Virus record (IMG/VR): IMGVR_UViG_3300017738_000017
Location: 1-33,061 of that record
Strand: one strand, 5' to 3'
Length of the DNA: 33,061 nt
Source: a virus
How positions within the stretch are numbered: position 1 is the first letter of the stretch; each line of letters starts with the position of its first letter. A program made the position numbers and the translations under genes. The notes beneath the pieces are model-generated. The model did not search any database and had not been told where the DNA came from. It saw only the letters and a program-made list of their open reading frames with translations. This document shows, one piece after another, positions 1 through 31,669 of this stretch.

Positions 1-102
1 GAGATGAGTGACACACAAAGATATAAGCAGGCAGGCAACGCAGTGACCGTGGATGTGGTCCAAGCCGTTGCTACAATCATAAAGGAAAAGGAGTTAGTAT
101 GA
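1..102 (+). CDS. C-terminal fragment of C5 DNA methyltransferase (duplicate of contig end)
   Basis: This is the end of the cytosine-C5 methyltransferase described at 31670-33040, seen a second time because of the end overlap. It carries the motif X sequence QAGNAV and stops with TGA at 100-102. It is not a separate gene. The stop overlaps the ATG at 99 of the next gene (ATGA), and the AAAGGAAAAGGAG just before is the ribosome-binding site of that gene. Confidence 0.9.
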   Translation, partial: EMSDTQRYKQAGNAVTVDVVQAVATIIKEKELV

Positions 103-123
103 CATTTTGGTTAGAGTCATTAC
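1..123. repeat. Left copy of 123-bp terminal direct repeat
   Basis: The first 123 bases are identical to 32939-33061. The repeat holds the last 33 codons of the C5 methyltransferase gene and the start of the 51-residue membrane protein gene. Joining the two copies gives one continuous methyltransferase gene and a circular unit of 32,938 bp. An exact short end overlap inside a gene is what an assembler produces from a circular or circularly permuted molecule, so this is probably not a physical T7-style terminal repeat. Confidence 0.95.
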
Positions 124-254
124 AAGAGAATGCATTTGATGTGTTCCAAGTGGTGTGGATAGGTGTAGCGATATTTGCTACGCATTATTTGATGCGGTGG
201 CACTTAAAACAGTTAAAGGAAGAGATAATCGAAGAGATAAGGAGTAAAAAATGA
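99..254 (+). CDS. Small single-span membrane protein, 51 aa
   Basis: The ATG at 99 overlaps the methyltransferase stop and follows a strong AGGAG site, which supports translation. The product has a short N-terminal segment, one hydrophobic span at about residues 16-32 (FQVVWIGVAIFATHYLM) and a charged tail rich in Lys and Glu (LKEEIIEEIRSKK). This looks like a one-span inner-membrane protein with a cytoplasmic helical tail. I recognise no family. It ends in an ATGA overlap with the next gene, also a tiny membrane protein, so the two are translationally coupled and may act as a pair. It is shorter than the 60-residue limit commonly used in ORF listing. Confidence 0.65.
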   Translation: MTFWLESLQENAFDVFQVVWIGVAIFATHYLMRWHLKQLKEEIIEEIRSKK

Positions 255-385
255 TCATGTTTGACATAGCAGAGTGGGTAGCAAATATATTAGTGCTAGG
301 TCTAGGACTATTGTTCTGGGCGTTGGCATTTGGAGTTTCATTTTTAATTATTACCGAACTAAAGGAGAGATACATCGATGAGTAA
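251..385 (+). CDS. Small single-span membrane protein, 44 aa
   Basis: The ATG at 251 overlaps the TGA of the preceding gene. The product has an N-terminal amphipathic piece (MIMFDIAEWV), one long hydrophobic span at about residues 11-34 (Leu, Gly, Phe-rich, ending SFLII) and a short charged end, TELKERYIDE. Its stop (383-385) overlaps the nuclease gene starting at 378, whose ribosome-binding site AAAGGAGAGA lies inside this frame. Function is unknown. Two consecutive coupled membrane peptides ahead of replication genes could act on the host membrane or in superinfection exclusion, but nothing in the sequence shows this. Confidence 0.55.
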   Translation: MIMFDIAEWVANILVLGLGLLFWALAFGVSFLIITELKERYIDE

Positions 386-1034
386 AACAAAGTTACACGG
401 TCAGAACTATGTGCTTGGTGACGGCAAGCGCGCAGCAAGCGTGACCACCATTATTAACAATCAGTTAGGATGGAACAAGAACACACTTATTGCGTGGGCA
501 AAGCGGATAACGGCTCAAGGCGATGACGCAGATGCGGTGATGCGTGACGCAGGTGACATAGGTACATTGACACATTTAATGATACAAGGATACCTGGAAG
601 GATTCACTGTGGATACGCGGGATTTCACACCAAACCAAGAACAGCAGGCACTAAAAGCATTCGTAGGTTTTCGTAATTGGTTTGATAACGCGAACTTTAA
701 GGTACTCGCCAGTGAGTTTGCACTGGTCAATGAAGAGTTGCGCGTTGGTGGTACGGTGGATTGTTTAGGTAAGATAGATGACGAGCTTGTGATAGTGGAT
801 TGGAAGACATCCAAAGGTGGACCGTACCCAGAAATGATGATTCAGTTAGGTGCATATACATTGATGTACGAAGCTGCGCAACCCAAGGCGGATGTGAAGT
901 ACGGTGTAATCATGCGGTTTGGTAAGGAAGATGGAAAATTTCATAAGCATGTGATCAGTCGCGATAAGTTGGATGCAGGTGCGCAGGCGTTCAGACATTT
1001 ATGTGCATTGTACAACTTACGTAGGAAGTTTTGA
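378..1034 (+). CDS. PD-(D/E)XK exonuclease, RecB/Cas4-like
   Basis: The 218-residue protein shows the RecB-type nuclease motifs in order: GTLTH at 62-66, Glu113 in a strand (ASEFALV), GGTVD with Asp128, the core DWK at 141-143 (IVDWKTSK), and QLGAY at 156-160, which is the QxxxY motif of the Cas4/AddB/lambda-exonuclease-like group. Expected activity is metal-dependent processing of DNA ends in recombination or genome replication. No four-Cys iron-sulfur cluster typical of Cas4 is visible, so it is nearer to single-domain phage RecB-like nucleases. The ATG at 378 follows AAAGGAGAGA. The stop overlaps the primase-helicase TTG start, giving a coupled nuclease-helicase pair. Confidence 0.85.
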   Translation: MSKTKLHGQNYVLGDGKRAASVTTIINNQLGWNKNTLIAWAKRITAQGDDADAVMRDAGDIGTLTHLMIQGYLEGFTVDTRDFTPNQEQQALKAFVGFRNWFDNANFKVLASEFALVNEELRVGGTVDCLGKIDDELVIVDWKTSKGGPYPEMMIQLGAYTLMYEAAQPKADVKYGVIMRFGKEDGKFHKHVISRDKLDAGAQAFRHLCALYNLRRKF

Positions 1035-2881
1035 GGAGTGCGGTAGATGTCTTTTCACACATAACTCAAAACGGCAAACGCGCACGGTGTCCAGAATGCG
1101 ATGATGGCACGGTGCGCAAGCAAGGCACGGTGCAGATCAATGGTGAGTATGCCTATTGCCATAAGTGTCAGGACAGTTGGGATTTCAGTGAAAAGACAGT
1201 TAAAACCCCGAAGGTAGAATATAAACTCACCAACACCAAGGTCAAAGTAGAGTCAAAAGAGGTCAAAAAGAGTGGTTATGCAAGTGCGCGGGATACGTTC
1301 GTTGCGCATTGGCAGAAGGCAGTGGATGAGTTGGAGTTGCCTTGGAACGAGAAGTGCTTGGACCTGCCCATTGGCGTAAGGCGTGACGATAAGAAGAATG
1401 CGCAGTTGGTGTTCCAGATCAATGAGAATCATGTAAAATTTCATAAAGGACCGCAGTTCGGTGACGCGGAATGCAAGGCGTTTGAGACTCCGCATTTATC
1501 TCTCTCCACACTTGTGATCTGCGAAGGCGAAAAAGACGCTGTCACCGCATACTGCAATGGCGCATCCGCTCTGACCTATACGTCAGGTGCGGGTGCGCTG
1601 CCTGCTAAACTAACCTTGCCGTCTAGATATAATAAGGTATACATAGTGTACGATAATGACGAAAAAGGCGAGGAAGGTGCTAAAAAACTCGCTAGAAAGC
1701 TATTCGAGCATAAGGTTGAGTTGTATGTTATGCAGTGGGGTGAGAAGCCTTTAAGGTATGACCTTACCGATTGGTTCAGCGATGGCCATACACTAGATGA
1801 GTTGTTGGTGTGTTGCGTGCGGTATGGTGACAAACCAGAGGACATTGGCGGGATGCGTAGCTTTAGTCCATCGCAGTTTGCTAAGACCTTTGTCAAGATG
1901 CCAGAACCTATTATTGAGGATCTATTCTTTGAGAAGGACATTATGGGTCTTGCAGGTGGTACGAATGTGGGTAAGTCGGTGATGAGCTTGCAATTGTCCA
2001 CATGTTTGGCTTTAGGAGTGCCGTTCTTAGGCTTTAGAATACCGAAGCCTAGGAAGGTTATGCATGTGCAGTTTGAGCTGAAGGATGAGAGTTTCAAGCA
2101 GTTGATCGAGCGGACCGCGATGCATTTTGTTAAGAAGTATCCTGTGGAAGCAGAGCGGTTCGATAAGAATCTGAGTATCTTGAGCAGTGGGCAGAACAAT
2201 GTCTTCACCGATAAATGGGAAGAAATGGACGCGAATCTAACCTTTGACCCTTGCGATGTGTTGGTGGTGGATAACTTGTATACTAGTACCAATAAGAATG
2301 TGAGCAAGAACGATGATGTGATGGACCTGTTGCGTACGATGGTGAATATGAAGAACAAGCATAAGGTAGCTATTCTGATGGTATCGCATCATAAGAAGTT
2401 GGGCGAGGCGAGTCCATTGGATGTGAGTATGATGTTGGGCGGGAGTGCGTACACGAATCATCTGGATGGTATCGTACAGCTTGCGAGTAGCAATCGTATG
2501 CCTGGATTAAAGGTGATGAAGATCACGAAGGTGCGGAGCCAGAACGATCTTCACGGTGTGCCAGTTGGAGTTAAGTTGCATAATGTTAGTGATGGTGATC
2601 TGTATTTTGAATACTTGAAGCCGTTGCCAAAGAATGAAATGTTCTGGTATACGGACCCAAAGGAGTCAGTAGAAGAAAAAGTATTGCAGGCAATTGCGAC
2701 AGAAGGGCAGAACTTTAGCCGTGAAATGTTTAAGGCTGCGTTGGAATCTGTGGTAAATGTTGGTAGCAATACAGCGGTTGCAAATTGGTTAGAACGAATG
2801 ATAAAACAAGGACTAATTAGTAAGATCGGGCATGGGCAATATCGCAAATTGGAAACTGAACTGGACAGTTTTAACGATTAG
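1031..2881 (+). CDS. DNA primase-helicase (zinc ribbon, Toprim, RecA-like ATPase)
   Basis: The 616-residue protein is built like a phage primase-helicase. An N-terminal zinc ribbon has Cys20-x2-Cys23 and Cys43-x2-Cys46. A Toprim domain follows with EGEKDA at 165-170 and DND at 208-210, the metal-binding acidic motifs. A RecA-like ATPase has Walker A GGTNVGKS at 309-316, Walker B ending at Asp414 (DVLVVDN) and a SHH sensor motif about 35 residues later. The C-terminal 75 residues look like a winged helix. The ATPase core looks closer to RepA/AAA_25 than to T7 gp4. The start is TTG at 1031, overlapping the previous stop; no in-frame ATG lies upstream of the first Cys pair. It should unwind the fork and prime replication, possibly at the repeats just downstream. 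Confidence 0.9.
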   Translation: MRSAVDVFSHITQNGKRARCPECDDGTVRKQGTVQINGEYAYCHKCQDSWDFSEKTVKTPKVEYKLTNTKVKVESKEVKKSGYASARDTFVAHWQKAVDELELPWNEKCLDLPIGVRRDDKKNAQLVFQINENHVKFHKGPQFGDAECKAFETPHLSLSTLVICEGEKDAVTAYCNGASALTYTSGAGALPAKLTLPSRYNKVYIVYDNDEKGEEGAKKLARKLFEHKVELYVMQWGEKPLRYDLTDWFSDGHTLDELLVCCVRYGDKPEDIGGMRSFSPSQFAKTFVKMPEPIIEDLFFEKDIMGLAGGTNVGKSVMSLQLSTCLALGVPFLGFRIPKPRKVMHVQFELKDESFKQLIERTAMHFVKKYPVEAERFDKNLSILSSGQNNVFTDKWEEMDANLTFDPCDVLVVDNLYTSTNKNVSKNDDVMDLLRTMVNMKNKHKVAILMVSHHKKLGEASPLDVSMMLGGSAYTNHLDGIVQLASSNRMPGLKVMKITKVRSQNDLHGVPVGVKLHNVSDGDLYFEYLKPLPKNEMFWYTDPKESVEEKVLQAIATEGQNFSREMFKAALESVVNVGSNTAVANWLERMIKQGLISKIGHGQYRKLETELDSFND

Positions 2882-2895
2882 CGCGTGCAAAGAGA

Positions 2896-3017
2896 ATGCG
2901 GAATATGCGGAATATGCGGAATTTCAAATTCCGCTAGGCGGTGAAAAAAAGGAATATGAGAAACTGTAGTTATAGAGGAGAGAGAGAGAGATATTCTTCA
3001 TATTCTTCATATTCCGC
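2896..3017 (+). repeat. Iteron-like repeats and palindrome, candidate replication origin
   Basis: Immediately after the primase-helicase stop, ATGCGGAAT is repeated three times without gaps (2896-2922). The last copy merges into a perfect palindrome, GCGGAATTT (2916-2924), C, AAATTCCGC (2926-2934). About 57 bp further on, TATTCTTCA occurs twice in tandem (2992-3009) and runs into ATATTCCGC (3009-3017), the inverse of the GCGGAATAT in the first block. A GA-rich tract lies between. Direct iterons plus inverted copies beside a replication gene fit an origin; a large RNA hairpin or terminator is an alternative. Confidence 0.5.
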
Positions 3018-3032
3018 TTCTCAGCACCTCTA

Positions 3033-3251
3033 GTGATTTCTGCTTCAAAATGCCCACTTTCAAAGAAAGATGATAAATCTTGCGAATTTGTGCAGATCGC
3101 TAGTGATGGTGAACGATGTGCGCTGGTTTTGGAGTGGTACGATGACCTGCGAGTTTGCAATTTGGACAGGTGCTGGTTGCGGTTGCGCACGCGTGACAAA
3201 CTGGCGTGGCGGAACCGTATGCTGAAAAAGAAAAAACCCCTGAGTGAATAA
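3033..3251 (+). CDS. Hypothetical Cys- and Arg-rich protein, 72 aa
   Basis: An open frame with a GTG start and TAA stop lies between the repeat block and an AT-rich stretch. The product has five Cys, several Trp and a basic end (RLRTRDKLAWRNRMLKKKKP). Its codon use (CGN and CGG arginines, GCG) resembles the neighbouring primase gene rather than random AT-rich DNA. Against it: no ribosome-binding site precedes the GTG, no ATG is available near the start, and I recognise no family. It could be a small nucleic-acid-binding protein, a gene remnant, or chance. Confidence 0.3.
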   Translation: MISASKCPLSKKDDKSCEFVQIASDGERCALVLEWYDDLRVCNLDRCWLRLRTRDKLAWRNRMLKKKKPLSE

Positions 3252-3444
3252 TATAATTTGCAAAAAAACCCTGCGAACCAGATATAAAAACCCTGCCAGT
3301 ATAATATAATAACAGCATAATTAACCATATTTGGATGCGAAAATGGACCAAAAAAGCTCAAAACGGGCATTTTAAAGAAATTCAAAAAACCGCTTTAAGT
3401 CAATTAATGAAATTTTTTAGAAATTTAACTGTAATTTTAGGCAC
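3252..3444. other. AT-rich non-coding stretch with short direct repeats
   Basis: I see no gene in these 193 bases. AAAAACCCTGC occurs twice, at 3264-3274 and 3286-3296, and ATAATATAAT occurs near 3248 and at 3301-3310, so a small unit appears partly duplicated. The high A+T content next to the iteron-like block would suit a DNA unwinding element. The stretch also separates the plus-strand replication genes from the converging minus-strand island and ends at the terminator at 3445-3468. Confidence 0.4.
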
Positions 3445-3468
3445 AAAAAAACCCGCATAAATGCGGGT
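3445..3468 (-). terminator. Rho-independent terminator closing the minus-strand island
   Basis: The stem arms ACCCGCAT and ATGCGGGT (3451-3458 and 3461-3468) pair perfectly. On the minus strand the hairpin is followed directly by a T run (A run at 3445-3450 on plus), the classical intrinsic terminator form. It lies 27 bases beyond the stop of the 26-residue gene, the last of the minus-strand set. On the plus strand the downstream sequence is only moderately T-rich, so it may also weakly stop readthrough from the replication genes. Confidence 0.85.
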
Positions 3469-3494
3469 CAATTTGTTGGTTTATTGGTTTAAGA

Positions 3495-3575
3495 CTATGA
3501 CAAAATGAACAGTATTAACCAGATGAAAAAACAAACCAAAACATATGTTTTTAATACCTGTTCGAACTCTTCCAT
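3495..3575 (-). CDS. Membrane micropeptide, 26 aa
   Basis: The frame starts at ATG 3575-3573 and ends with TAG at 3497-3495. It is preceded by AAAAAGAGAGG with 7 bases to the ATG, the same ribosome-binding sequence that serves the other four genes on this strand, and is followed closely by the terminator. The peptide has a short acidic N-terminus (MEEFEQVLKTY) and a hydrophobic C-terminal span rich in Val, Phe, Ile and Leu, so it should insert into the membrane. No family is recognised. The signals at both ends are better evidence than the sequence, which is too short for confident homology. Confidence 0.6.
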   Translation of the reverse strand: MEEFEQVLKTYVLVCFFIWLILFILS

Positions 3576-3578
3576 TTA

Positions 3579-3746
3579 CTAACCTCTCTTTTTTAGTTGT
3601 TCAATCTGTGCATCCATCGAATCCCAATCGCGATTGCTCCAGGTGGCTTTATATCGCTTCAAATCGCGCTCCGCTGCGGTGACGGTCTTATATGGACCAT
3701 ATACCCAAGGATCCGTTGAATCATGAGTTACAATAATTACAAACAT
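3579..3746 (-). CDS. Hypothetical protein, 55 aa
   Basis: The ATG at 3746-3744 follows AAAAGAGAGG with 8 bases spacing; TAG lies at 3581-3579. The product begins with a beta-strand-like MFVIIVTHDSTDPWVYGPYKT, then an Arg/Lys- and Trp-containing helix, and ends with MDAQIEQLKKRG. The order FVIIVTH...VYGPYKT...AERDLKRY resembles small phage proteins with a beta-hairpin followed by an amphipathic helix, but I cannot name the family. It is the fourth gene of the minus-strand island, three bases before the membrane micropeptide. A 98-base gap separates it from the 105-residue gene upstream and contains two short hairpins (near 3778-3800 and 3808-3825). Confidence 0.65.
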   Translation of the reverse strand: MFVIIVTHDSTDPWVYGPYKTVTAAERDLKRYKATWSNRDWDSMDAQIEQLKKRG

Positions 3747-3844
3747 ATTTAAACCTCTCTTTTATTAGTTTCCATATATCCGCCCATATATGAGCGGATT
3801 TCACGCGGTAACTATCCGCGCTCTTCAGTATGGTTTAAAGCGTT

Positions 3845-4162
3845 TTATGATTGCCTGCACATGGATTTTTTTATCATAACGAATTTAATTTTCTTTAAAG
3901 CGTCTATCATTTCATCGTATTGATATTGATAATCTTCAATAGTGCTTTCATCACCGTACAACGCTTTTTCCTCATATTCAATGACTTCTTTTATTACTTT
4001 CGTTTCACTTGTTAAATATTCATATAATAAATTTAATGTCCATATTGAATGATTTTCTAGATCATGAGAATATTTAAAAACCTTCCTTAGTTCGTTTAAA
4101 TCATTAATGCATGTATCAAGTGAAACTTCTATTGCATTGTTTTGCAACTCATTTAATTTCAT
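3845..4162 (-). CDS. Hypothetical acidic helical protein, 105 aa
   Basis: ATG at 4162-4160 is preceded by AAAAAGAGAGG at 7 bases. The product is strongly helical and acidic in its middle (EVIEYEEKALYGDESTIEDYQYQYDEM) and basic at its end (KKIKFVMIKKSMCRQS). No transmembrane span or enzymatic motif is visible, and no family is recognised. It lies 17 bases after the GP88 gene in the same transcript. Small acidic helical proteins of this kind often bind and inhibit host proteins, but that is only a possibility here. Confidence 0.7.
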   Translation of the reverse strand: MKLNELQNNAIEVSLDTCINDLNELRKVFKYSHDLENHSIWTLNLLYEYLTSETKVIKEVIEYEEKALYGDESTIEDYQYQYDEMIDALKKIKFVMIKKSMCRQS

Positions 4163-4179
4163 CGTTTTACCTCTCTTTT

Positions 4180-4758
4180 TTAGTGTTTAATTAATCCGAT
4201 ACGGTTGGCTGTGATCATCTTCATATCATTAACAGAACAATCAATGAACCGCGCTTTTTTTAGCTCTTCTTTAGTGTCAAATATTACAGCGCGCTTGTCG
4301 GTTGCTTTTATTTTATGATCCATCTTACCACCAGTTGAAAAACAAAAAATAAAGTTGACTGGCAATTTTACCGCCTGGAGTAATGGAACGCTTTTTGTGT
4401 ATCCATAAAAAATAATCTTTGGATTATTGCACGCAATTTCTAACCAAGATTTTAAATAGTTCATACTGTAAAAATCTCCGCTTGAATGAATGCGCACAAA
4501 TTCAACGCGTTTTTTTGTTAGTTCTTTTTGTATCTGTTCAATAAATGCGGGCGCATTTAATGTTAGTTCATAATTAAAATTATACTTTGCTTGAACGTTT
4601 GGATATTTGAAAGTACCTTTATCCGCGTAACAAATCTCTTTGCAAGTATCCGCCCACGGGCAAGAACTCACAGCGGGCAAGTTAAACTCATACAAGCGCG
4701 CATTGTTTAATTTAGCGGTCTTTTTTATTTTACTGTTTGTGTTAGTTAATAGGTTCAT
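4180..4758 (-). CDS. GP88-family phage protein
   Basis: The 192-residue protein matches the general pattern I know for the phage GP88 family: a Lys-rich N-terminus (NSKIKKTAKLNN), LPAVSSCPWADTCKEICYADKG with Cys33-x5-Cys39-x3-Cys43, an Asn/Tyr-rich helix, VRIHSSGDFYS at 88-98, then NPKIIFYGYTKS at 112-123. The Cys triad followed by alternating strands and helices with a conserved SGD resembles a reduced radical-SAM-like barrel, but the Cys spacing is not the canonical CxxxCxxC, so chemistry is uncertain. The role is unknown. The ATG at 4758 overlaps the upstream stop by ATGA and follows AAAGAGAGAGG. It is the only gene of this island with a recognisable family. Confidence 0.75.
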   Translation of the reverse strand: MNLLTNTNSKIKKTAKLNNARLYEFNLPAVSSCPWADTCKEICYADKGTFKYPNVQAKYNFNYELTLNAPAFIEQIQKELTKKRVEFVRIHSSGDFYSMNYLKSWLEIACNNPKIIFYGYTKSVPLLQAVKLPVNFIFCFSTGGKMDHKIKATDKRAVIFDTKEELKKARFIDCSVNDMKMITANRIGLIKH

Positions 4759-5096
4759 TTTACACCTCTCTCTTTAGTTAATAGTTGATCAAAATATTTT
4801 AAATTGCTACGTATAACGCTCCAAAGCTCTCCCATATCATCAGTGCTAAATATTTCATCACTAGGAACATAATCTTCAGCGTAATGTATACCATAGGAAT
4901 TATCCATATATAAGAAAATAAGTATTGCGCCGCGGTTTGTATCGTATTGCGCTCCCCACGTTAAACCTTCATCATTTAAATCAGTCCAATCATTAAACCC
5001 TAATAGTCCAAAGTGTATACAATATTCTAGCTCATGATTAAAATCATATGAGTTATGAAATTTATATGGTTCATATACTTGTTTATACTTATTCAT
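4755..5096 (-). CDS. Hypothetical acidic protein, 113 aa
   Basis: First gene of the minus-strand island. ATG at 5096-5094 follows AAAGAGAGAGG at 6 bases. The product is rich in Tyr, Trp, Asp and Asn (for example GLTWGAQYDTNRGAILIFLYMDNSYGIHYAED), with alternating short strands and an acidic surface. Its tail carries TDDMGELWSVIRSNLKYFDQLL, probably a helix. No family is recognised. The stop overlaps the GP88 start. Its position next to the two candidate minus-strand promoters makes it probably the first protein made from this strand; acidic proteins in such positions are often DNA mimics or host inhibitors, which I offer only as a possibility. Confidence 0.7.
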   Translation of the reverse strand: MNKYKQVYEPYKFHNSYDFNHELEYCIHFGLLGFNDWTDLNDEGLTWGAQYDTNRGAILIFLYMDNSYGIHYAEDYVPSDEIFSTDDMGELWSVIRSNLKYFDQLLTKERGVK

Positions 5097-5155
5097 TATT
5101 AACCTCTCTCTTTTTTTTGTTTAGTTACTTCTTGCGATCTCTCAAGTCGCTCATA

Positions 5156-5184
5156 AATTTAGTTTATATATATATATGTGTCAA
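5156..5184 (-). promoter_or_regulatory. Minus-strand promoter P1 with GTGTTGACA box
   Basis: On the minus strand, perfect -35 TTGACA (5184-5179), a 17-base AT-alternating spacer and a -10-like TAAATT (5161-5156) precede the first gene of the island by about 60 bases. The -35 is embedded in GGTGTTGACAC, whose GTGT and ACAC ends form a dyad, so it can double as a repressor site. Confidence 0.55.
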
Positions 5185-5422
5185 CACCTCAATTAATAAA
5201 ATATATCTATCAAACCAAAACAAAAAGAAAGTAGGACGCAACGTGCCACATTGACACAAACACCGCAGATCATACACCGCATAAAACCCGCGTAAATTGT
5301 TAAGTCTTGATATTACTAGATATAACAGAATGAGACACCTAAAAAAAATTGCGCATAACATACATTATGTATAACTTATCGGGTATACCAAGGTAAACCC
5401 AGATTTTTCCCACTTACCGCGT

Positions 5423-5454
5423 CTTAAAATTTTTACTTTCGTTTTTGTCAACAC
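5423..5454 (-). promoter_or_regulatory. Minus-strand promoter P2 / operator next to late-gene start
   Basis: On the minus strand, TTGACA (5451-5446) lies in CGGTGTTGACAAA, with TTTAAG at 17 bases (5428-5423) as a weak -10. It would make a long leader toward the minus-strand island. On the plus strand the same box sits just before TATGCT (5457-5462), a possible -10 for the gene at 5475. The box may thus be an operator shared by both directions. Confidence 0.4.
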
Positions 5455-5474
5455 CGTATGCTTAAATTCAGATA

Positions 5475-5813
5475 ATGGAAGAAGTTTGGTCTAATCTAAC
5501 TGACGATAATACTGACAAATGGCTGCACGCCATAGACCGCGCAGACCGCTACCACCTCCACATGCTAGTATTCCGAAGTGGACTGATAGAACCGCACCTG
5601 CGCCACCTGCAAATAAGCGCACATAAGTTTTACGACCTACTATCTCCGCAGGAACTCCGCGTATTCAAGCAGCGCACGCTTGGTCACACCTTCGTTAGTA
5701 TCGCAGTAGAGATGGAGATAACCGAGTCCAGCGTAAAGGAATACTGGCGCAGAACATTGAACAAGATAAAGAATGTCATCGAAAAGGCTAATATAGATGA
5801 AGAAGAAGAGTAA
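5475..5813 (+). CDS. HTH protein, LuxR/sigma-region-4-like, candidate late regulator
   Basis: The 112-residue protein has a C-terminal helix-turn-helix at about 54-100: LSPQELRVFKQRTLGHTFVSIAVEMEI, then a recognition helix TESSVKEYWRRTLNKIKNVIE. This pattern (LT/LS-xxE, then G.t...IA, then SVK...R...K) is shared by LuxR-type effectors and sigma-70 region 4. The N-terminal half is helical and unfamiliar. It is the first gene of the late block and overlaps the small terminase by 17 bases, so it could activate late transcription or assist terminase DNA recognition. No ribosome-binding site precedes the ATG; with a -10 at 5457-5462 the message could be nearly leaderless. Confidence 0.6.
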   Translation: MEEVWSNLTDDNTDKWLHAIDRADRYHLHMLVFRSGLIEPHLRHLQISAHKFYDLLSPQELRVFKQRTLGHTFVSIAVEMEITESSVKEYWRRTLNKIKNVIEKANIDEEEE

Positions 5814-6201
5814 AGTAGACGCAGACCAAGTTAGAATGCTTGCGTCATTTGGATGTAACTACGCTGAAATTGGCAAATACTTCGAGGTAGGTGAAAATCA
5901 CATACGTCAAAGTTTCAAGGTACAGTACGAAGCAGGTCGCGAGGAGATGAAATTCAAGCTCAGACGCGCCATGTGGGTATCCGCCATCGAGAACAACGCA
6001 ATTGCGATGCAGATATTTCTTTCTAAGAACTATCTGGGCATGAGTGATAAGACAGCAGTAGACATGACAGGCAACCTGCAAACCGTACTACAACAGTGTG
6101 GTTTCGAGGAAAATCCGATTGATAAAGCAAATAGTGAACAGGCAAAAGCTCTGGAAGATCTTGGGGTACGACCCGACTCCACAGCAGTTGGCAGTTCATA
6201 A
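5797..6201 (+). CDS. terS: Terminase small subunit
   Basis: The 134-residue protein has an N-terminal HTH (DADQVRMLASFGCNYAEIGKYFEVGENHIRQ, about 8-38) followed by helices typical of TerS oligomerisation domains: LRRAMWVSAIENNAIAMQIFLSKNYLGMSDK. The end of that stretch, KNYLGMSDK, is close to the KxYLGQxD motif common in small terminases. It should bind the packaging site and load the large subunit. The start overlaps the upstream gene by 17 bases. Its last third overlaps the large-subunit frame by about 100 bases, an unusually long overlap that codes for its polar tail. Confidence 0.8.
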   Translation: MKKKSKVDADQVRMLASFGCNYAEIGKYFEVGENHIRQSFKVQYEAGREEMKFKLRRAMWVSAIENNAIAMQIFLSKNYLGMSDKTAVDMTGNLQTVLQQCGFEENPIDKANSEQAKALEDLGVRPDSTAVGSS

Positions 6202-7426
6202 CAGCACAGCTCGCTTTCGCGTCTGTTTAATGGGCAGACGATCTGGTAAATCCTACATGGCAGCGCACGAGATACTGCCGTGGTTGCTCACGCCCAATAC
6301 ACGTGGTTGGATAGTCGGACCAAACTACTCACTAGCCAATAAGATAGCTCGTGAGGTCAAGCGTATTGTAATGACCGAACTGCGCTTACCACTAGAATCC
6401 AAGAAAGAAATATCGGGAGACTTGTATTACATGAAGTTAGCAGGTCTGAACAGTGAGGTATCGGTCAAGTCAGCAGAAAACCAAGAATCATTGATCGGTG
6501 AAGGTGTTGACTGGCTTTGTATTGACGAAAGCGCGCTCATTTCACGCAACGTATTCGAGATGTACCTGCGCCCAACGCTATCAGACAGACAAGGATGGGC
6601 AATGTTCACCAGTACACCGCGTGGATTCAACTTCTTACATAGTTTATATGAATTTGGAAAGAGCGATAAGCACCCAGATTGGGAGTCGTGGCGTTTCCCC
6701 AGCACACTATCGCCATATTTCAAGGACGATCACGAAGAATTAAAGCGCACACTGACCAAAGAGACCTACCTGCAAGAGATCTTATGCGAATTCCAAAGCT
6801 ACGCAGGTAAGGTGTTTCCATTGGACAGGACCACGCAGATACGCGAGGATGTGAAATATGACCCATCCAAACCAGTATATGTTGGTTTGGATTTCGGCTA
6901 TCGCCATGCCCACGCTAATATCGTGCAATTGCACGGCAGAGAGAAGAATTTTGCTGACGTACATCAAATAGACGAGGTAAACCTGCAAAACACACGCACA
7001 GAAGAGTTTGCAAATAAACTGAATTCACTTGGCTACGAGTATACTGGCATTTGGGGTGACCCAGCAGGCAGTGGTACGAATTTGCAGTCTGGTATCAGTG
7101 ATATACAGGTATTTGCGAATCAAGGACTGCGTGTCAACATCAAGCGCGATGCGGTAACCAGAAACGTAGTATCTGGAGTATCGCATGTACGTAGGTGGTT
7201 TGAGGACGCAAATGGCGATCCGCACTTGTTCATTCATCCAAAGTGTGAGAAGAGCATCGAAGCGTATGAAAACTACCACTACCCAGAACACCGCGAAGAT
7301 CAAACCTTACGCCATGAACCAAAAAAAGATGGTAAGTTCGATCACGCCTGCGATGCGTTGCGTTTTCTGTTGACAAACCTATTCCCAATGAAAAACCGAC
7401 ACGCTGGTGTCATCGATTTCTTTTAA
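6098..7426 (+). CDS. terL: Terminase large subunit
   Basis: The 442-residue protein has the packaging-motor ATPase and nuclease domains. Walker A GRRSGKS lies at 46-52, Walker B with Asp143-Glu144 (LCIDES), and a coupling motif FTSTPRG about 25 residues later. The RNase H-like nuclease follows with VGLDFGYRHAHA, GIWGDPAGSGTN and the C-terminal FDHACDALRF, which supply the metal-binding Asp residues. It translocates DNA into the prohead and cuts it. The GTG at 6098 is the longest start; GTG 6134 or TTG 6158 are alternatives, none with a clear ribosome-binding site, so translation is probably coupled to the small subunit. The circularly permuted contig would fit headful packaging. Confidence 0.93.
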   Translation: MVSRKIRLIKQIVNRQKLWKILGYDPTPQQLAVHNSTARFRVCLMGRRSGKSYMAAHEILPWLLTPNTRGWIVGPNYSLANKIAREVKRIVMTELRLPLESKKEISGDLYYMKLAGLNSEVSVKSAENQESLIGEGVDWLCIDESALISRNVFEMYLRPTLSDRQGWAMFTSTPRGFNFLHSLYEFGKSDKHPDWESWRFPSTLSPYFKDDHEELKRTLTKETYLQEILCEFQSYAGKVFPLDRTTQIREDVKYDPSKPVYVGLDFGYRHAHANIVQLHGREKNFADVHQIDEVNLQNTRTEEFANKLNSLGYEYTGIWGDPAGSGTNLQSGISDIQVFANQGLRVNIKRDAVTRNVVSGVSHVRRWFEDANGDPHLFIHPKCEKSIEAYENYHYPEHREDQTLRHEPKKDGKFDHACDALRFLLTNLFPMKNRHAGVIDFF

Positions 7427-7434
7427 AGGTAGAT

Positions 7435-8796
7435 ATGCTTACAATTCAAGATCAATCTGAAGGCGCAATAATTGGCGCATTACAAGAACAGTTAAAATAC
7501 ATCGAGGATGAGCGTACTCGCGAGCGGGATTATTTGATGGACTTCTACGAAGGAATCAATTTAGACCACTATGTGAGCGATTACTTTGGCCCAGAGACCC
7601 TGCGTCAGACGGTCATCCCACAAAACAACCTCACTAGACGCGTCTGTAGTCTTCGTTCGATGACCTACAAACGACCACCACGTCTGCGTACGAGCGATAC
7701 CTATCTATCTATTATAGATAAGCACGGTCTTAACGCGCAACGCAGAATGCTAGAGCGTTTGACCTTTTTGCTTGGTACAATGGCATTTAGAAGTAAATGG
7801 AATGAGGTCACACAAAAATTAGAATATGAGATATTATCTCATTTTACGCCTTTATTTTTAGCAGGCGATTCAAGAGATAAACCAATTGGTGTCATGTATC
7901 CAATTGAGAACCAAGGCAACGCACGAGGTGACGTGGTACACGCGGTATGGACCGAAGAACGCTATGGTGTACCAGGTAGACACTTCCTTGTGGATGAAGA
8001 TGGTAAGGTGATCAGTGTTAATGAGAATGATATTAACCCATATGGTATGTTGCCAGTAACCTTTTGCCATCGCTACCCGCCAATACGCGACTACCACGTA
8101 GGCAACGCAATGGACGTAGCACAAACAGACCTTGCAGTGAATGTGGCATTACTTGAGCTAAATCTTGCTATAAAATATGGCTGTTTAGGTATTAAGTATA
8201 TTAGTGGTGTGGATGACCCTTCCCGCATATCAATAGGAACAGATAAGATTCTATATCTCCCAGAACAGGCAAATTTTGGCGTTACCTCAAGCGGTGGTAA
8301 CCTAAACCAGATCATAGACTCCACAAGATTTTTAGTGGAAACCACACTAAATAACAACCACATCCGCGCAAAATACGCACGAGATGACTCAGGCAACGCA
8401 CCAAGCGCAGCGAGTTTGACCATTGTGGAAGCTGAGAACGTAGATGAGCGCTCTGCAATGACCGAGGATACATGGAGACCTTGGGAACAACGCAGATTTC
8501 AAGTAGATAAACGTATCATTGAGATAGAAGCAAATGTGAACGTAGGCGATGAATATAGTGTAGACTTCCTAGAACCAAACTACGCATTGACACCAGAAGC
8601 AGAGATCATGCTTTGGAGTTGGAGATTTGACAGACAGCTTAGTACACCTATGGATTGGTTCGATTATCACAATCCTGACGCTGGACCAGAAGACCGAGCT
8701 AGGTTTGAGGAGCAGCAGAATGAAGTTGTAGAGGAAGATGTGCCACAGAACAGACTATTAAATATTTTGAATGCCAACAATAGACCAAACAGTTAA
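7435..8796 (+). CDS. Portal protein
   Basis: The 453-residue protein follows the large terminase directly and has the portal pattern: an N-terminal helical region (QLKYIEDERTRERDYLMDFYEG), NLTRRVCSLRSMTYKRPPRLR, a beta-rich wing with HAVWTEERYGVPGRHFLVDEDGKVISVNENDINPYGMLPVTF, then a long helical stem (TDLAVNVALLELNLAIKYG) and crown. It forms the dodecameric ring through which DNA enters and leaves the capsid. Length is in the range of SPP1/HK97-type portals. Start: ATG 7435 after AAAGGTAGAT. Its last 26 bases overlap the MuF-like gene. Confidence 0.88.
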   Translation: MLTIQDQSEGAIIGALQEQLKYIEDERTRERDYLMDFYEGINLDHYVSDYFGPETLRQTVIPQNNLTRRVCSLRSMTYKRPPRLRTSDTYLSIIDKHGLNAQRRMLERLTFLLGTMAFRSKWNEVTQKLEYEILSHFTPLFLAGDSRDKPIGVMYPIENQGNARGDVVHAVWTEERYGVPGRHFLVDEDGKVISVNENDINPYGMLPVTFCHRYPPIRDYHVGNAMDVAQTDLAVNVALLELNLAIKYGCLGIKYISGVDDPSRISIGTDKILYLPEQANFGVTSSGGNLNQIIDSTRFLVETTLNNNHIRAKYARDDSGNAPSAASLTIVEAENVDERSAMTEDTWRPWEQRRFQVDKRIIEIEANVNVGDEYSVDFLEPNYALTPEAEIMLWSWRFDRQLSTPMDWFDYHNPDAGPEDRARFEEQQNEVVEEDVPQNRLLNILNANNRPNS

Positions 8797-9442
8797 TTCG
8801 TATGAGAGCAGTATTGAAGATGCCATCAATGGGTTCCAACAGGATGTTGAAGAACTTGAAGAGGAAGGTCTCTCTACAACTGAGATATTGGGAATTATCG
8901 CTGCAATTGACTTTTCGACCTATTTTGTTGAGAGCCTACGCTTCTCTACCGCCATCAACTCCTTCATGGCTACAACTGAGGATATTCTTGTTGATCTGCC
9001 GAGTTTTGGGCGTGCAAACGAGATACAACTCGTGGTTCTACAGACTCTCCAACGCCAAGGCATACAAGGCGTAACTAGACAAGTGAGTAATGTGATGCAG
9101 AACGCAATGGTGTCTGGCTTAAATAGTGGCTTAAAAGGCGATGAATTAAAGAACATAATACGCACTGCGGTCCGCACAAATACGCCACGTGTCGAAAATA
9201 CAATTTATACAATGCTTGGTGATTATAGACGCGCTGTGGTTGGCGCAATGGCAATAGATCTACCAGAAGATACGTTATATAGATATGTTGGACCAGATGA
9301 CGAAAAGAATCGTCCTATATGTAGAACGTATTTATCCAATGACCCACTAACACTTGAAGAGATAAGGCAAGTAAAGTCAGATGGATTTGAGCATGGCGGT
9401 GGCCATCGTTGCCGTCATTATTGGGAACCAATTAATGTTTAA
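8771..9442 (+). CDS. Minor head protein, MuF/SPP1 gp7-like
   Basis: The 223-residue protein has a long helical N-terminal part and a C-terminal MuF-type signature: LYRYVGPDDEKNRPICRTYLSNDPLTLEEIRQ, then GGGHRCRHYWEPINV. The conserved Y.GP.D...R..C and GGG..CRH.W elements with two Cys and His are the hallmark of the Mu gpF/SPP1 gp7 family. These proteins associate with the portal inside the head and help DNA ejection. The position, overlapping the portal gene by 26 bases, is the normal one. No toxin domain is fused at the C-terminus. Confidence 0.85.
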   Translation: MPTIDQTVNSYESSIEDAINGFQQDVEELEEEGLSTTEILGIIAAIDFSTYFVESLRFSTAINSFMATTEDILVDLPSFGRANEIQLVVLQTLQRQGIQGVTRQVSNVMQNAMVSGLNSGLKGDELKNIIRTAVRTNTPRVENTIYTMLGDYRRAVVGAMAIDLPEDTLYRYVGPDDEKNRPICRTYLSNDPLTLEEIRQVKSDGFEHGGGHRCRHYWEPINV

Positions 9443-9896
9443 GTTACAGGATATATTGAAATTTAGAGAGCCTGACGTAAAAAAGATGGCAGAGAATACT
9501 GTTAGGCGTACCAAACAACAGATTGCTAGTGGAAAAGATTATACAGGACAAGCATTTGATGATTATTCTGAGAGCTACGCAAATCGTAAGAAAAACGGTA
9601 AAGTACAACCAGTAACCTTAAAAGATACTGGCAAGATGTTAAATGCATTTCAAGTGCAACGTACAACAGTTAGAAAAAATCAAGAAATACAGTTTTTATA
9701 TGGTATTAAAAAGAATAAGCAAGGAACTAAATTATTTGATCATAACGAAGGTAAGAATCGAATGAAAAAGCGTTCTATTGCGGAGAATCAAGAATTAGGC
9801 GATAAAGTAGAAGAAGGTATCGTCAAAGACTTCGCCAATATAATTGGCAAGAACCTATCACGCATGAGCAAGACACGCGTAACAATAAACATGTAG
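9435..9896 (+). CDS. Virion morphogenesis / neck protein, Mu gpG-like
   Basis: The 153-residue protein, with ATG at 9435 overlapping the upstream stop by 8 bases, contains ASGKDYTGQAFDDYSESYANRKK and PVTLKDTGKMLNAFQV. The D.tG..f..Ys..Ya.RK and L.DTG.ML motifs belong to the phage virion-morphogenesis/tail-completion group (Mu gpG, PF05069-like). Such proteins usually act at the head-tail interface. The rest is Lys-rich with a helical C-terminus. A longer in-frame start at 9381 exists but lies inside the MuF gene and has no ribosome-binding site. Confidence 0.65.
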   Translation: MFKLQDILKFREPDVKKMAENTVRRTKQQIASGKDYTGQAFDDYSESYANRKKNGKVQPVTLKDTGKMLNAFQVQRTTVRKNQEIQFLYGIKKNKQGTKLFDHNEGKNRMKKRSIAENQELGDKVEEGIVKDFANIIGKNLSRMSKTRVTINM

Positions 9897-9904
9897 GAGG
9901 ACAG

Positions 9905-10453
9905 ATGTCCGAAGAACAAACACCAGTTGCACAGCCAGTGCCTGAGTCTACAGTTGACCCTGTAGGACCAGACCAAACTCAAGAACAAGACCACCAACAA
10001 CTCGAAGTTGGGAATCTGATAGCAGAGTCAAAGAAATATCGTGGACGCGCGCAAGCTGCGGAAACAGAGCTTTCTAACCTCCGCAAAGAAATCGAGAATA
10101 CTCGAATAAATCAAATGGAAGAACAAGAGCAATGGAAGAATCTTGCCGAGGAGCGCGCCAACAAGCTCGCAGAACTCGAACCCATTGTTGAATCAGCAAT
10201 GAAGCAGGAAGCATCGCTTCGCGCTGAACTTCTAAGTGAGATACCAGAGGAAGAGCATGCTACATTTGGAGAGTTACCTCTAGAAGCATTGCGTGCTGTA
10301 GTAAAGAAACTAAACACACAACGCGTTGCGGTTTCCAGCGCACCATCTGCGCCAGTCAATGATAGTAATGTTGATTTAAAGAAGATAAAAGACTCTGACA
10401 GGCGTATGAATTGGAGCAATATTCTGGAATCCTATAAACGCAAAGGAACTTAA
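9905..10453 (+). CDS. Capsid scaffolding protein
   Basis: The 182-residue acidic protein begins with a Pro/Gln/Glu-rich disordered segment, followed by a long coiled coil (about 45-110, with ESKKYRGRAQAAETELSNLRKEI and later heptads). A Ser/Pro linker and a short basic end (DRRMNWSNILESYKRKGT) follow. This composition and the position directly before the major capsid gene are typical of scaffolds that guide prohead assembly and then leave. A protease domain is not seen. The start has the strongest ribosome-binding site of the window, TAGGAGGACAG. Confidence 0.85.
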   Translation: MSEEQTPVAQPVPESTVDPVGPDQTQEQDHQQLEVGNLIAESKKYRGRAQAAETELSNLRKEIENTRINQMEEQEQWKNLAEERANKLAELEPIVESAMKQEASLRAELLSEIPEEEHATFGELPLEALRAVVKKLNTQRVAVSSAPSAPVNDSNVDLKKIKDSDRRMNWSNILESYKRKGT

Positions 10454-10468
10454 AAAAGGACTTAGAAA

Positions 10469-11341
10469 ATGGCAGATGGTAACGTAACAACAACCACCGC
10501 GGCCAAGTTCATCCCTGAATTATGGCGTGACGCTATACTAGACTATGCAGAACGTAAATTCGTACTGCGTAATCAGGTGATGGACTTTTCATCCGAGATG
10601 CCTTCGGGAGATACTTTGCATATCCCTAAAGTCACTGAGGAAACGGCTGCATCAAAAGGCGCAGGTACTGCGGTAACATACACAAACAACACGGATGGTG
10701 AGGTCACCATTTCTGTTGATCAACATCATTATGAAGCGAAACGGATCGATGATATAGTCCGCGTCCAAGAGTCAGCAAACCTCTTTGGAGCGTATGCCCA
10801 GTCTATGGGTTATGCTCTTGCTAAGAAGGTTGAAAACTACTTGGCAGTAGACGTACTTCAGTCCGCAACTGGTAATGATATTACACTTGGAACTGACAAT
10901 CAAGTCACTTCTGCAAAACTACGTGAAGGTTTGCAAAAGCTACTTGATGCGGGTCACGACTACGCAGATGGCGAAACATTCTTATATGCTTCTCCTGCTG
11001 CATACATGTATCTCTTGAGTCTACAGGACTTCTATGATTCATCTCGTAGAGGTGATGGGCAGAATCCTAATGTCTCAGGTGGCGTGGGTCAGATCTACGG
11101 TATGCCAACATACATCTCAACCGATTGGGATGATGATGGTGGTACTGGTGATGAAACTGCAACTGTCTTTAAGAAAGAAGCAGTGTACATGGCTATGCAG
11201 ATCGCACCTAGAGTGCAGTCAGCATACGACATTGACCACCTGGCTACAAGCGTGGTTGCCGATATACTTTTTGGCGCATCCTTGTCTCATGGTGCTTCTA
11301 GCACGTCACTTGGAGTTGTTAACTTCGCTAATCCATCTTAA
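10469..11341 (+). CDS. Major capsid protein (HK97-fold)
   Basis: The 290-residue protein has the features of a major coat protein: IPELWRDAILDYAERKFVLRNQVMDF at the N-terminus, GDTLHIPKVTE, a middle YEAKRIDDIVRVQ, the spine helix AYAQSMGYALAKKVENYLAVDVLQ, and the A-domain elements LLDAGHDYADGETFLYASPAAYMYLL and GGVGQIYGMPTYISTD. It forms the icosahedral shell. Length suits capsids of the SPP1/P22-like small-coat groups without a fused protease. Start ATG 10469 follows AAAAAAGGACTTAG. A strong hairpin lies 22 bases after the stop. Confidence 0.9.
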   Translation: MADGNVTTTTAAKFIPELWRDAILDYAERKFVLRNQVMDFSSEMPSGDTLHIPKVTEETAASKGAGTAVTYTNNTDGEVTISVDQHHYEAKRIDDIVRVQESANLFGAYAQSMGYALAKKVENYLAVDVLQSATGNDITLGTDNQVTSAKLREGLQKLLDAGHDYADGETFLYASPAAYMYLLSLQDFYDSSRRGDGQNPNVSGGVGQIYGMPTYISTDWDDDGGTGDETATVFKKEAVYMAMQIAPRVQSAYDIDHLATSVVADILFGASLSHGASSTSLGVVNFANPS

Positions 11342-11363
11342 TAGTCACTATAAGATGATTGTA

Positions 11364-11390
11364 AATGGGTGGGCGTTTCGCCCACCCATT
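11364..11390 (+). terminator. Strong hairpin after the major capsid gene
   Basis: AATGGGTGGGCG (11364-11375), loop TTT, and CGCCCACCCATT (11379-11390) pair perfectly over 12 bp. The following sequence is AGAAAGGAAATAAA and not a T run, so it is not a standard intrinsic terminator. It may stabilise the 3' end of the capsid message or lower expression of the genes after it. The AGAAAGG that follows is the ribosome-binding site of the next gene. Confidence 0.65.
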
Positions 11391-11404
11391 AGAAAGGAAA
11401 TAAA

Positions 11405-11566
11405 ATGAAATATTTTAAAAGAAAAGATGGTTCTGTTTTTGGCAAAGTAGAATCAATTAATCAAGAAGTAATTGATGGCTTTTTAAAAAAAGGATACCAG
11501 CCTTGCAACGAGAATGGCGAGGTTAAAAAGCCTAAAAAGAAACTGAGTCTTAAAAAGCAAAAATGA
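11405..11566 (+). CDS. Small Lys-rich protein, 53 aa
   Basis: ATG 11405 follows AGAAAGGAAATAA; TGA at 11564-11566 overlaps the next ATG. The product begins MKYFKRKDGSVFGKVESINQE, a likely small beta-sheet, continues with a helix (VIDGFLKKGYQPC) and ends with a very basic tail (VKKPKKKLSLKKQK). Proteins of this shape occur between the capsid and tail genes in many uncultured phages and may be minor head components, but I cannot name a family. It is coupled to the zinc-ribbon gene behind it. Confidence 0.6.
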   Translation: MKYFKRKDGSVFGKVESINQEVIDGFLKKGYQPCNENGEVKKPKKKLSLKKQK

Positions 11567-11748
11567 AGACCAACGACTTCTTATGTAGTCCTTGTGAGTA
11601 TAAATGGGAACAGTTATGGTCCAAGGATGATAAGATCACTTGCCCAAAATGCAAAACCAAAAAGGTACGCAAATTGTTTGCAAGTCCTATCATCCAAATG
11701 AAAGGAATTAGCGATGCCAGCCTAAGAGCGCAAGGCATCATAGAGTAA
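11563..11748 (+). CDS. FmdB-like zinc-ribbon protein, 61 aa
   Basis: The product has Cys8-x2-Cys11 and Cys27-x2-Cys30 in the layout of the FmdB/CxxC zinc-ribbon family: LCSPCEYKWEQLWSKDDKITCPKCKTKKVRKLFASPI. The phrase CPxC...vrklfs is characteristic. In phages the role of such proteins is unknown; in bacteria they are annotated as regulatory. The C-terminal part (MKGISDASLRAQGIIE) is short and probably helical. The gene overlaps the previous one by ATGA. A 6-bp inverted repeat, GATGCC and GGCATC, lies in its last 40 bases. Confidence 0.7.
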   Translation: MKTNDFLCSPCEYKWEQLWSKDDKITCPKCKTKKVRKLFASPIIQMKGISDASLRAQGIIE

Positions 11749-11751
11749 ATA

Positions 11752-11792
11752 ACCGAAATGCCCATGAGATAAGTCACGCTCGGTAAGGCATT
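11752..11792 (+). promoter_or_regulatory. Possible RNA pseudoknot in leader of virion-protein gene
   Basis: In the 61-base gap before the gene at 11810, ACCGA (11752-11756) can pair with TCGGT (11780-11784) and AATGCC (11757-11762) with GGCATT (11787-11792). The order of the four arms is that of an H-type pseudoknot. The AGAAAGGAG ribosome-binding site starts a few bases later, so the structure could tune translation. Both stems are short, so chance is possible. Confidence 0.3.
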
Positions 11793-11809
11793 CAGAAAGG
11801 AGAAACAAG

Positions 11810-12148
11810 ATGGCTGATCTTTCCAAGCATTCAGTGGTTGAATCACTGAATATCAGCAGTTCTGCAAATTTTTCAGTACAAACAGCGCAAAGTGTTGCAA
11901 CAGGGTCAGAATACGACCTAGATGTCAGCGCGGTTCACAGCGTAATATTACAGCCTAGTAGTGATGTCTATTATGGGTTCAGTAGTAGCGCAAGCGACAT
12001 GATAGTGGGCAGTACAGGAAACAATTTATATTTAGCGGGTGGAGATACCATCTACGAATTAAATGTGCCACAAGGCATAGGATCATCAGTTTATTTACAT
12101 TTGCTTGGCAAAGGTGCAACCTCTACGGTGCGCATCGTACTAGCGTAG
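11810..12148 (+). CDS. Beta-rich virion protein, decoration or fibre-associated
   Basis: The 112-residue protein is rich in Ser, Val and Gly with alternating strands: SVILQPSSDVYYGFSSSASDMIVG, NNLYLAGGDTIYELNVPQGIGSSVYLHLLGKGATSTVRIVLA. The pattern of a central exposed loop followed by LyLagGdt.y..vPqG...l.l...g...v.v is seen in small beta-sandwich virion proteins of many environmental phages. The location between capsid and fibre genes suggests a head decoration or fibre base. It has a strong ribosome-binding site (AAAGGAGAAAC). Assignment is by composition and context, not by a certain family match. Confidence 0.55.
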   Translation: MADLSKHSVVESLNISSSANFSVQTAQSVATGSEYDLDVSAVHSVILQPSSDVYYGFSSSASDMIVGSTGNNLYLAGGDTIYELNVPQGIGSSVYLHLLGKGATSTVRIVLA

Positions 12149-15200: not shown

Positions 15201-15440
15201 ATGGCTTTAGAAAAAAAGAAAACATACGATTATGAAGTGCGTGGAGATTATAAATGTATTCAAGAACGCTGTAAAACATCTATCGAAGAAGATGGTAAGG
15301 AAATATCGTTTTCATACCATAGAAAGGCATTTATGCCAGATGCAGATGTAAGTGCTGAGTCTGACGAATTAAAGGCAATGGCAAATGCACTATGGACAGA
15401 TGATATTAAGAAAGCGTATGAAGATAGTAAAAAAGATTAA
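15201..15440 (+). CDS. Hypothetical protein after fibre gene, 79 aa
   Basis: The 79-residue product starts after a good AAGGAGTAAAC site. It has a strand-rich N-terminal half (YDYEVRGDYKCIQERCKTSIEEDGKEISFSYHRKAFMPDAD) and a helical acidic C-terminal half (SAESDELKAMANALWTDDIKKAYEDSKKD). I have seen comparable proteins next to fibres in environmental phages, but I know no function. Position suggests a fibre-assembly helper or accessory virion protein. Confidence 0.7.
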   Translation: MALEKKKTYDYEVRGDYKCIQERCKTSIEEDGKEISFSYHRKAFMPDADVSAESDELKAMANALWTDDIKKAYEDSKKD

Positions 15441-15462
15441 TTAACTAACACAAGGAAACAAC

Positions 15463-15717
15463 ATGGCTAAAAAAGAAAAACAACCGCCAGTTATTCTAAC
15501 TCTTAATGACGTTGAATATGATGTCAATGAGGACTTTAATGACGAGCAAAAGCAGATGTATCTACATTTGAAGAATATCGATGATAAGATAAATAGCAAC
15601 AACTTCATCCAACAGCAACTCGCTGTAAGTAAGGATGGATTTGTAAGAATGCTAGAAGAGTCATTGGCAAAGTCAGATGATCACTCACCGCATGACCCAG
15701 GTGATGAGAACGATTAG
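15463..15717 (+). CDS. DUF6447-like small protein, 84 aa
   Basis: The product begins MAKKEKQPPVILTLNDVEYDVNEDFNDEQKQMYLHLKNIDDKINSNN. The order of a short strand with vILTLNdveYdv, an acidic turn, and two helices with Q...L..id.kI matches the small phage family I know as DUF6447. The last third (LAKSDDHSPHDPGDEND) is an acidic disordered tail. The role is unknown, but members usually sit with virion genes near fibres. ATG 15463 follows CAAGGAAACAAC. The next gene starts directly after its stop. Confidence 0.65.
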   Translation: MAKKEKQPPVILTLNDVEYDVNEDFNDEQKQMYLHLKNIDDKINSNNFIQQQLAVSKDGFVRMLEESLAKSDDHSPHDPGDEND

Positions 15718-16008
15718 ATGATTGTTAGATGCGCCCATGATAATGATGTTGTGATCCACTTGAATAACAAACAAGGTATGACTAAAAATTTAAAGCTCAA
15801 TGATGGTACACTCTTTTCCTTAACCTATCCTAGTAGTAAAAAGTATTTTTTACGCGTAGGTGAGGAGATAATTAAAAGATCAGACAGCTTCAAAACCATT
15901 GAAGAAGAGTACATGAAACAATGCAACTCTTTGAAGGATTCAGATAATCATGGGCGCATTGATATTGTAAAACATAAAATTATTGAAAACAAGGTAGTAG
16001 ATAGATGA
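15718..16008 (+). CDS. Hypothetical protein, 96 aa
   Basis: ATG 15718 directly follows the TAG of the previous gene. The product has alternating short strands (MIVRCAHDNDVVIHLNN, GTLFSLTYPSSKKYFLRVGEEI) and a mixed-charge C-terminal region with an unusual run HGRIDIVKHKIIENKVVDR. No membrane span, catalytic motif or family is recognised. It ends in an ATGA overlap with the membrane protein at 16005, so it is co-translated with the start of the lysis region. It may be a last accessory structural gene or belong to lysis control. Confidence 0.6.
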   Translation: MIVRCAHDNDVVIHLNNKQGMTKNLKLNDGTLFSLTYPSSKKYFLRVGEEIIKRSDSFKTIEEEYMKQCNSLKDSDNHGRIDIVKHKIIENKVVDR

Positions 16009-16295
16009 ATAGTCCTTTAGCAAAACTAGTGGCATGGCAACAGCGCACAGGTCAATTAGATGGTTGGACCGCATATCATCTTGCAGCAGGCGCATTTCTT
16101 TGCAAGATATTCCAATGGTGCGGATGGTCTGATTTATGGTGCGTTTTAGGCGTATTGATAGTTGGTATAGCTTGGGAAGTTTTCGAGTGGTATATCGAGA
16201 ATTACAAGCCTTATGGCACAAAAGAAAGATGGTTGTACAATACGTTATCGGATATATTCGTAGAAACTGCCATAGCATGGTGGATGGTATTATGA
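16005..16295 (+). CDS. Multi-span membrane protein, possible holin-like
   Basis: The 96-residue, Trp-rich protein has hydrophobic stretches at about 25-40 (HLAAGAFLCKIFQWCGW), 44-58 (LWCVLGVLIVGIAWE) and 84-96 (VETAIAWWMVL), suggesting two or three spans. The acidic-aromatic patch AWEVFEWYIENYKPYGTKERW between them is distinctive and resembles small phage-encoded VanZ-like or DUF membrane proteins, whose roles are unknown. It opens the lysis region, so a holin or holin-regulating role is plausible but not shown. The start overlaps the previous stop (ATGA). Confidence 0.55.
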   Translation: MNSPLAKLVAWQQRTGQLDGWTAYHLAAGAFLCKIFQWCGWSDLWCVLGVLIVGIAWEVFEWYIENYKPYGTKERWLYNTLSDIFVETAIAWWMVL

Positions 16296-16316
16296 AAATT
16301 AATTATGAAGTAAGTT

Positions 16317-31638: not shown

Positions 31639-31669
31639 AAAGGATGACATTGGCTTGGTGGACGCTACC

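Follow-up and report, generated by a model that had tools for sequence, protein, structure and literature searches.

We propose, with modest confidence, that five small inverted genes in the genome of an uncultured marine phage form an autonomous, separately transcribed operon for early host takeover, assembled from exchangeable cassettes around a radical-SAM-like protein and shared by a family of marine tailed phages. An inverted block equipped with start and stop signals of its own, in which genes are swapped around the GP88 protein, is probably an early host-takeover kit. The stretch of DNA analysed, referred to here as the window, is a complete genome of 33,061 bp (an IMG/VR record) with an exact 123-bp direct end repeat. 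Its plus-strand core genes encode a PD-(D/E)XK nuclease, a primase/helicase, terminase, head and tail proteins, a single-stranded DNA-binding protein (SSB), a RusA-like resolvase and a DNA methyltransferase. The only supported minus-strand genes of the window are five ORFs at 5096-3495, between the primase/helicase and terminase genes, and GC skew is positive outside this island and negative over the island only.

The preliminary description of this DNA had drawn attention to five small minus-strand genes with one recognisable family, GP88, two of them (55 and 26 residues) easily missed, and all of these elements are present. From right to left on the minus strand, they are a 113-aa ORF without recognised family (4755-5096), which is an insertion unit absent from the sister genome L064; the 192-aa GP88 protein (4180-4758; PF17338, E 2e-39); a 105-aa ORF of island family F5 (3845-4162; 6 of 30 islands), in whose place L064 has another gene; a 55-aa ORF of family F3 (3579-3746; likewise 6/30), which is under purifying selection; and a 26-aa single-pass membrane peptide of family F4 (3495-3575). 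The two smallest genes are supported as real by their relatives: dN is well below dS in the 55-aa family among the relatives compared, and the membrane-peptide family recurs among relatives with dS exceeding dN. Searches against annotated phages gave no match for the 55-, 105- and 113-aa proteins or for a further island family, F2, nor did a DNA-level search of the island region; Rfam and tRNA scans also returned no matches.

To the left, the island is flanked on the plus strand by the primase/helicase gene (1031-2881) and a 72-aa ORF (3033-3251), to which a 72-aa ORF of contig L101 is similar. A putative island family, F1, was dropped because it lies antisense to the region holding this 72-aa ORF, and is probably conserved only as its shadow. 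On the right, also on the plus strand, lie an HTH protein adjoining the terminase genes, named terS here (5475-5813), a second small-terminase candidate (5797-6201) and the terminase large subunit gene, terL (6098-7426). Just before terS, a block of about 40 bp (5413-5454) is nearly invariant in the alignment of close relatives while nearby intergenic DNA varies; it could be a promoter, an operator or a packaging site. Elsewhere in the window, a putative 98-aa minus-strand ORF with a GTG start (11550-11846) overlaps the gap between plus-strand genes, and the DNA methyltransferase gene (31625-33040), whose presence varies among relatives, has a middle part (about residues 225-400) that is absent or different in them and is probably a variable target-recognition domain.

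The island had been credited with its own promoter, ribosome-binding sequence and perfect terminator, and each has a counterpart in the present analysis. The main promoter candidate, TTGACA-17-TAAATT (minus strand, 5156-5184), scores 10/12, tied for best of 27 sites in 1-12000. The pattern scan as such was no better than chance (27 sites against 28 expected), and the case for the promoter is therefore made by conservation: the site aligns in 10 close relatives, and most of a second subgroup of six genomes carries the variant TTGACA..TACATT. A second promoter-like site, TTGGTA-16-CATAAT (minus strand, 5364-5391), lies in a block kept in close relatives and is the weaker candidate. The -10 region at 5156-5163 reads TAAATTTA (TACATTTA in the second subgroup), which could be read either as sigma-70 or as the TAnnTTTG type of Bacteroidetes. 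The intrinsic terminator (minus strand, 3443-3469; stem-loop 3469-3450) has a perfect 8-bp stem followed by seven T residues, folds at -17.5 kcal/mol (z -4.95) and lies just beyond the 3495-5184 range first assigned to the island; it is present in close relatives with altered loop or stem. A leader hairpin upstream of the first island gene was no better than shuffles. The conserved promoter and terminator, together with the consistent inversion of the locus described below, support the island as its own predicted transcription unit, and we infer transcription itself from these conserved signals.

Each of the five ATGs of the island is preceded by a predicted ribosome-binding sequence that contains the same 8-mer, AGAGAGGT. 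Its five copies in the window are all on the minus strand, each just upstream of an island ATG, where chance would give about 0.7 copies on one strand and 0.1 on the opposite one. In 10,000 draws of five random plus-strand genes a shared 8-mer was found in at most three. We refer to these elements as start-associated sequences (SAS); in the order of the genes they occupy, on the minus strand, 5102-5111 (AGAGAGAGGT), 4764-4773, 4169-4178, 3753-3762 and 3582-3591. In relatives the minus-strand motif is likewise confined to islands. Within a lineage one SAS is common to the island genes, and its version varies with the lineage: the window clade has AAAGAGAGGT, L072, L076 and L088 have AAGGATAGAC, and L063 has CGGAGACAAC. 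The Shine-Dalgarno core stands in a different register in each version. A collection scan with an extended SAS pattern was uninformative: it matched once in each of 17 contigs, of which at least two belong to the phage family.

Relatives were collected by IMG/VR scans with GP88 and terL, which yielded 99 loci, and by two more GP88 scans, which yielded 30 more. A minus-strand island is present in all 30 distinct loci having both flanks, the order primase/helicase, minus-strand island, terS, terL holds in every relative with both flanks, and GP88 runs opposite to the core genes in all 51 distinct loci. The comparison at this locus that had been suggested as a check favours the inverted arrangement: within the phage family the same genes were not found on the plus strand among structural genes. 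The same layout occurs in L101 (1-8516), a phage contig assigned to the Candidatus Marinimicrobia single-cell genome AG-470-O07, whose core proteins show 40-74% identity. Among 245 genomes of that phylum a close terL match was found in AG-470-O07 alone. These data suggest a Marinimicrobia (SAR406) host for the phage group at large; that of the window phage itself may be different.

Gene content within the islands turns over rapidly around GP88. The island genes of the 30 loci fall into 22 recurring families (the discarded antisense F1 among them) and 44 singletons, and 26 of the 30 islands have a GP88 match; in L098 a DUF7227 protein gives a weak one, and GP88 is absent from three (L033, L085, L076). 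Many islands, that of the window included, close with a single-pass membrane peptide of 24-27 residues. No accessory island protein has a Pfam family, and their matches are to six unknown PHROG families only. The window and L064 illustrate the exchange at close range: terL is 100% identical and the flanking core genes are nearly so, while the 113-aa gene appears as an insertion with an SAS copy on either side, and L064 has a different gene at the position of the 105-aa one. Across 22 genomes, 59% of homology breaks fall within 25 nt of an SAS as against 10% for random positions, with 0.03 breaks per site mid-gene and 2.5-4.2 at SAS. Stop codons without a nearby SAS also have 1.9 breaks per site, so selection for the exchange of intact genes explains much of the clustering and is a sufficient alternative; a role of the SAS in recombination is offered here as a hypothesis.

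GP88 is the near-constant element of these islands and the one for which a biochemical class can be proposed. The window protein scores 136 bits against PF17338 (curated cut-off 24.4), and the divergent GP88 types found in islands (191-330 residues) were all far above the Pfam cut-off when tested. The dN/dS of about 0.06-0.1 indicates strong purifying selection, and Cys33, Cys39, Cys43, Arg89 and Ser141 (window numbering) are invariant in the alignment, Asp95 nearly so. Structure models were obtained for the window protein (pLDDT 75, pTM 0.78) and for a 231-residue relative (pLDDT 86, pTM 0.84). For the former, five of the top six PDB alignments were to radical-SAM enzymes (TYW1, spore photoproduct lyase, NifB), and for the latter the top 26 aligned PDB rows were all radical-SAM (NifB, QueE, PFL-activating enzyme, viperin), at Z values of at most 6.5, which is under the tool's trustworthy level. 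With Foldseek neither model gave a PDB match with E below 0.001, and a sequence-profile search of the PDB gave nothing meaningful. A further link is provided by DUF5131 (PF07505): among its members is one with a match to "radical SAM mobile pair protein A" (TIGR04471) at 1e-30. GP88 and DUF5131 share a collinear cysteine triad ending in CYA and SGD/SD, TK and PxN motifs, and the GP88 model matches some DUF5131 loci above cut-off; they differ in the C-terminus and in cysteine spacing, and their profiles, while collinear, align with a low hhalign probability of 7-25%. On these models GP88 would most resemble radical-SAM proteins, without being a filed member of that superfamily. We claim only "radical-SAM-like" because of these low Z values and because the cysteine spacing, CX5CX3C in the window protein and variable in the family, is not the canonical CX3CX2C.

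The timing of island expression can be approached through the position of GP88 in other phages. In the cluster A phage Kampy it stands second in the operon that is transcribed leftward at the right end, and among the matches listed mycobacteriophage GP88 genes are on the minus strand, with about 1.5-2.7 kb between them and the right end. RNA-seq shows early expression for the leftward right-arm genes of L5 (PMC5712189). In the pelagiphages HTVC134P and HTVC035P and the roseophage CRP-143 GP88 is gp2-gp4 at the leading end and precedes the phage RNA polymerase where one exists, as in Autographiviridae, where it lies in the early region upstream of that gene; in HMO-2011 it is gene 1. The early region of marine T7-like phages has been named the host takeover module (PMC11092137). 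HTVC023P and CRP-6 are exceptions, GP88 there adjoining the terminase genes on the same strand, and the two phages profiled in a pelagiphage RNA-seq study (PMC12753301) are not among the GP88 matches listed. Early expression of the island is what we infer from these positions, with their exceptions, and they make an early takeover role plausible.

Under the proposed takeover operon, host RNA polymerase would transcribe the island early and apart from the late packaging genes. The SAS would give every cistron its own similar ribosome-binding site, so that any cassette dropped in would be translated, and the same short repeats might offer a foothold for recombination in cassette swapping. GP88 would bind an iron-sulfur cluster, possibly also SAM, and during takeover modify a molecule of host or phage origin; the small island proteins would act as host-specific accessories. 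More tentatively, the SAS could be dual-purpose, combining uniform translation with the exchange of units made of an SAS and its gene, in which case the island would be a recombinase-free array for early phage proteins, homogenised within each lineage, around a radical-SAM-like takeover enzyme.

High turnover, the many singletons and accessory proteins that Pfam does not recognise and PHROG places only in unknown families would also be expected if the locus were a moron-like dump, a tolerated insertion spot at the boundary of two gene modules where small selfish or near-neutral genes pile up and the uniform SAS is simply a good ribosome-binding site. We regard this as unlikely, since GP88 is strongly constrained and present in nearly every island, the 55-aa family is constrained as well, and the promoter and terminator are kept. 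Small proteins that are quickly exchanged, mostly belong to no family and are encoded in what is probably an early operon also recall known anti-defence islands, in which each interchangeable protein would block one host defence system; PADLOC matches were weak and scattered (best E 1.1e-3) in a library that covers defence rather than anti-defence proteins, and no known anti-defence family was recognised, though such proteins often escape recognition, which leaves this reading improbable in our estimation.

In many temperate phages immunity is encoded by inverted cassettes close to the replication genes. An immunity function had been among those first suggested for the island: expressed in a dormant state, a lysogeny or superinfection-immunity cassette would keep related phages out, possibly with the terminal membrane peptide as its superinfection-exclusion protein. 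The recurrence of such peptides at island ends is in keeping with this, as is pelagiphage Bylgja, in which an unrelated protein encoded a few genes away from GP88 is annotated as superinfection exclusion. Against it, no repressor-like, HTH or integrase-like protein was recognised in the island, nor any repressor or integrase among the window ORFs scanned (the small ORFs at 15201-18470 and some others lying outside the scan), and no integrated relative was found, the sole genome match being the short single-cell-genome contig. The immunity suggestion is not supported on these grounds, and we consider such a cassette very unlikely.

On the early-takeover reading, host-interaction genes would have a concrete address in a family of uncultured marine phages that a single-cell genome links, through one member, to Marinimicrobia (SAR406). 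The island exposes miniproteins that ordinary gene callers miss, and the models propose a radical-SAM-like class for GP88, a widespread phage protein. The islands also constitute a natural system in which to test whether short translation-start repeats guide phage gene shuffling.

Several known systems share parts of this organisation. With the leftward right-arm early operon of cluster A phages (L5, Kampy) the island shares an operon of small genes that is transcribed in the opposite direction and has GP88 near its beginning, as seen in Kampy. In cluster A phages a repressor acts on the early promoter, and there are stoperators; unlike their arm, the island is internal, about 2 kb long and has no recognised repressor or integrase. 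Its likeness to the leading region of marine T7-like phages (HTVC134P, CRP-143) lies in GP88 standing among tiny unknown ORFs upstream of RNA polymerase, whereas in those phages GP88 is on the same strand as the other genes. The closest parallel to the repeats themselves is the 13-bp SAS of cluster K mycobacteriophages, GGGATAGGAGCCC (PMC3203893). Both are short asymmetric repeats with a Shine-Dalgarno core that stand, in one orientation and in phage-specific form, a few bases before the start codons of many unrelated non-structural genes. Unlike the cluster K elements, those of the island are limited to one inverted block, precede all of its genes, vary between lineages and coincide with cassette breakpoints, and their sequence (AAAGAGAGGT and its lineage variants) is a different one. 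The island SAS thus resemble those of cluster K in placement, not in sequence.
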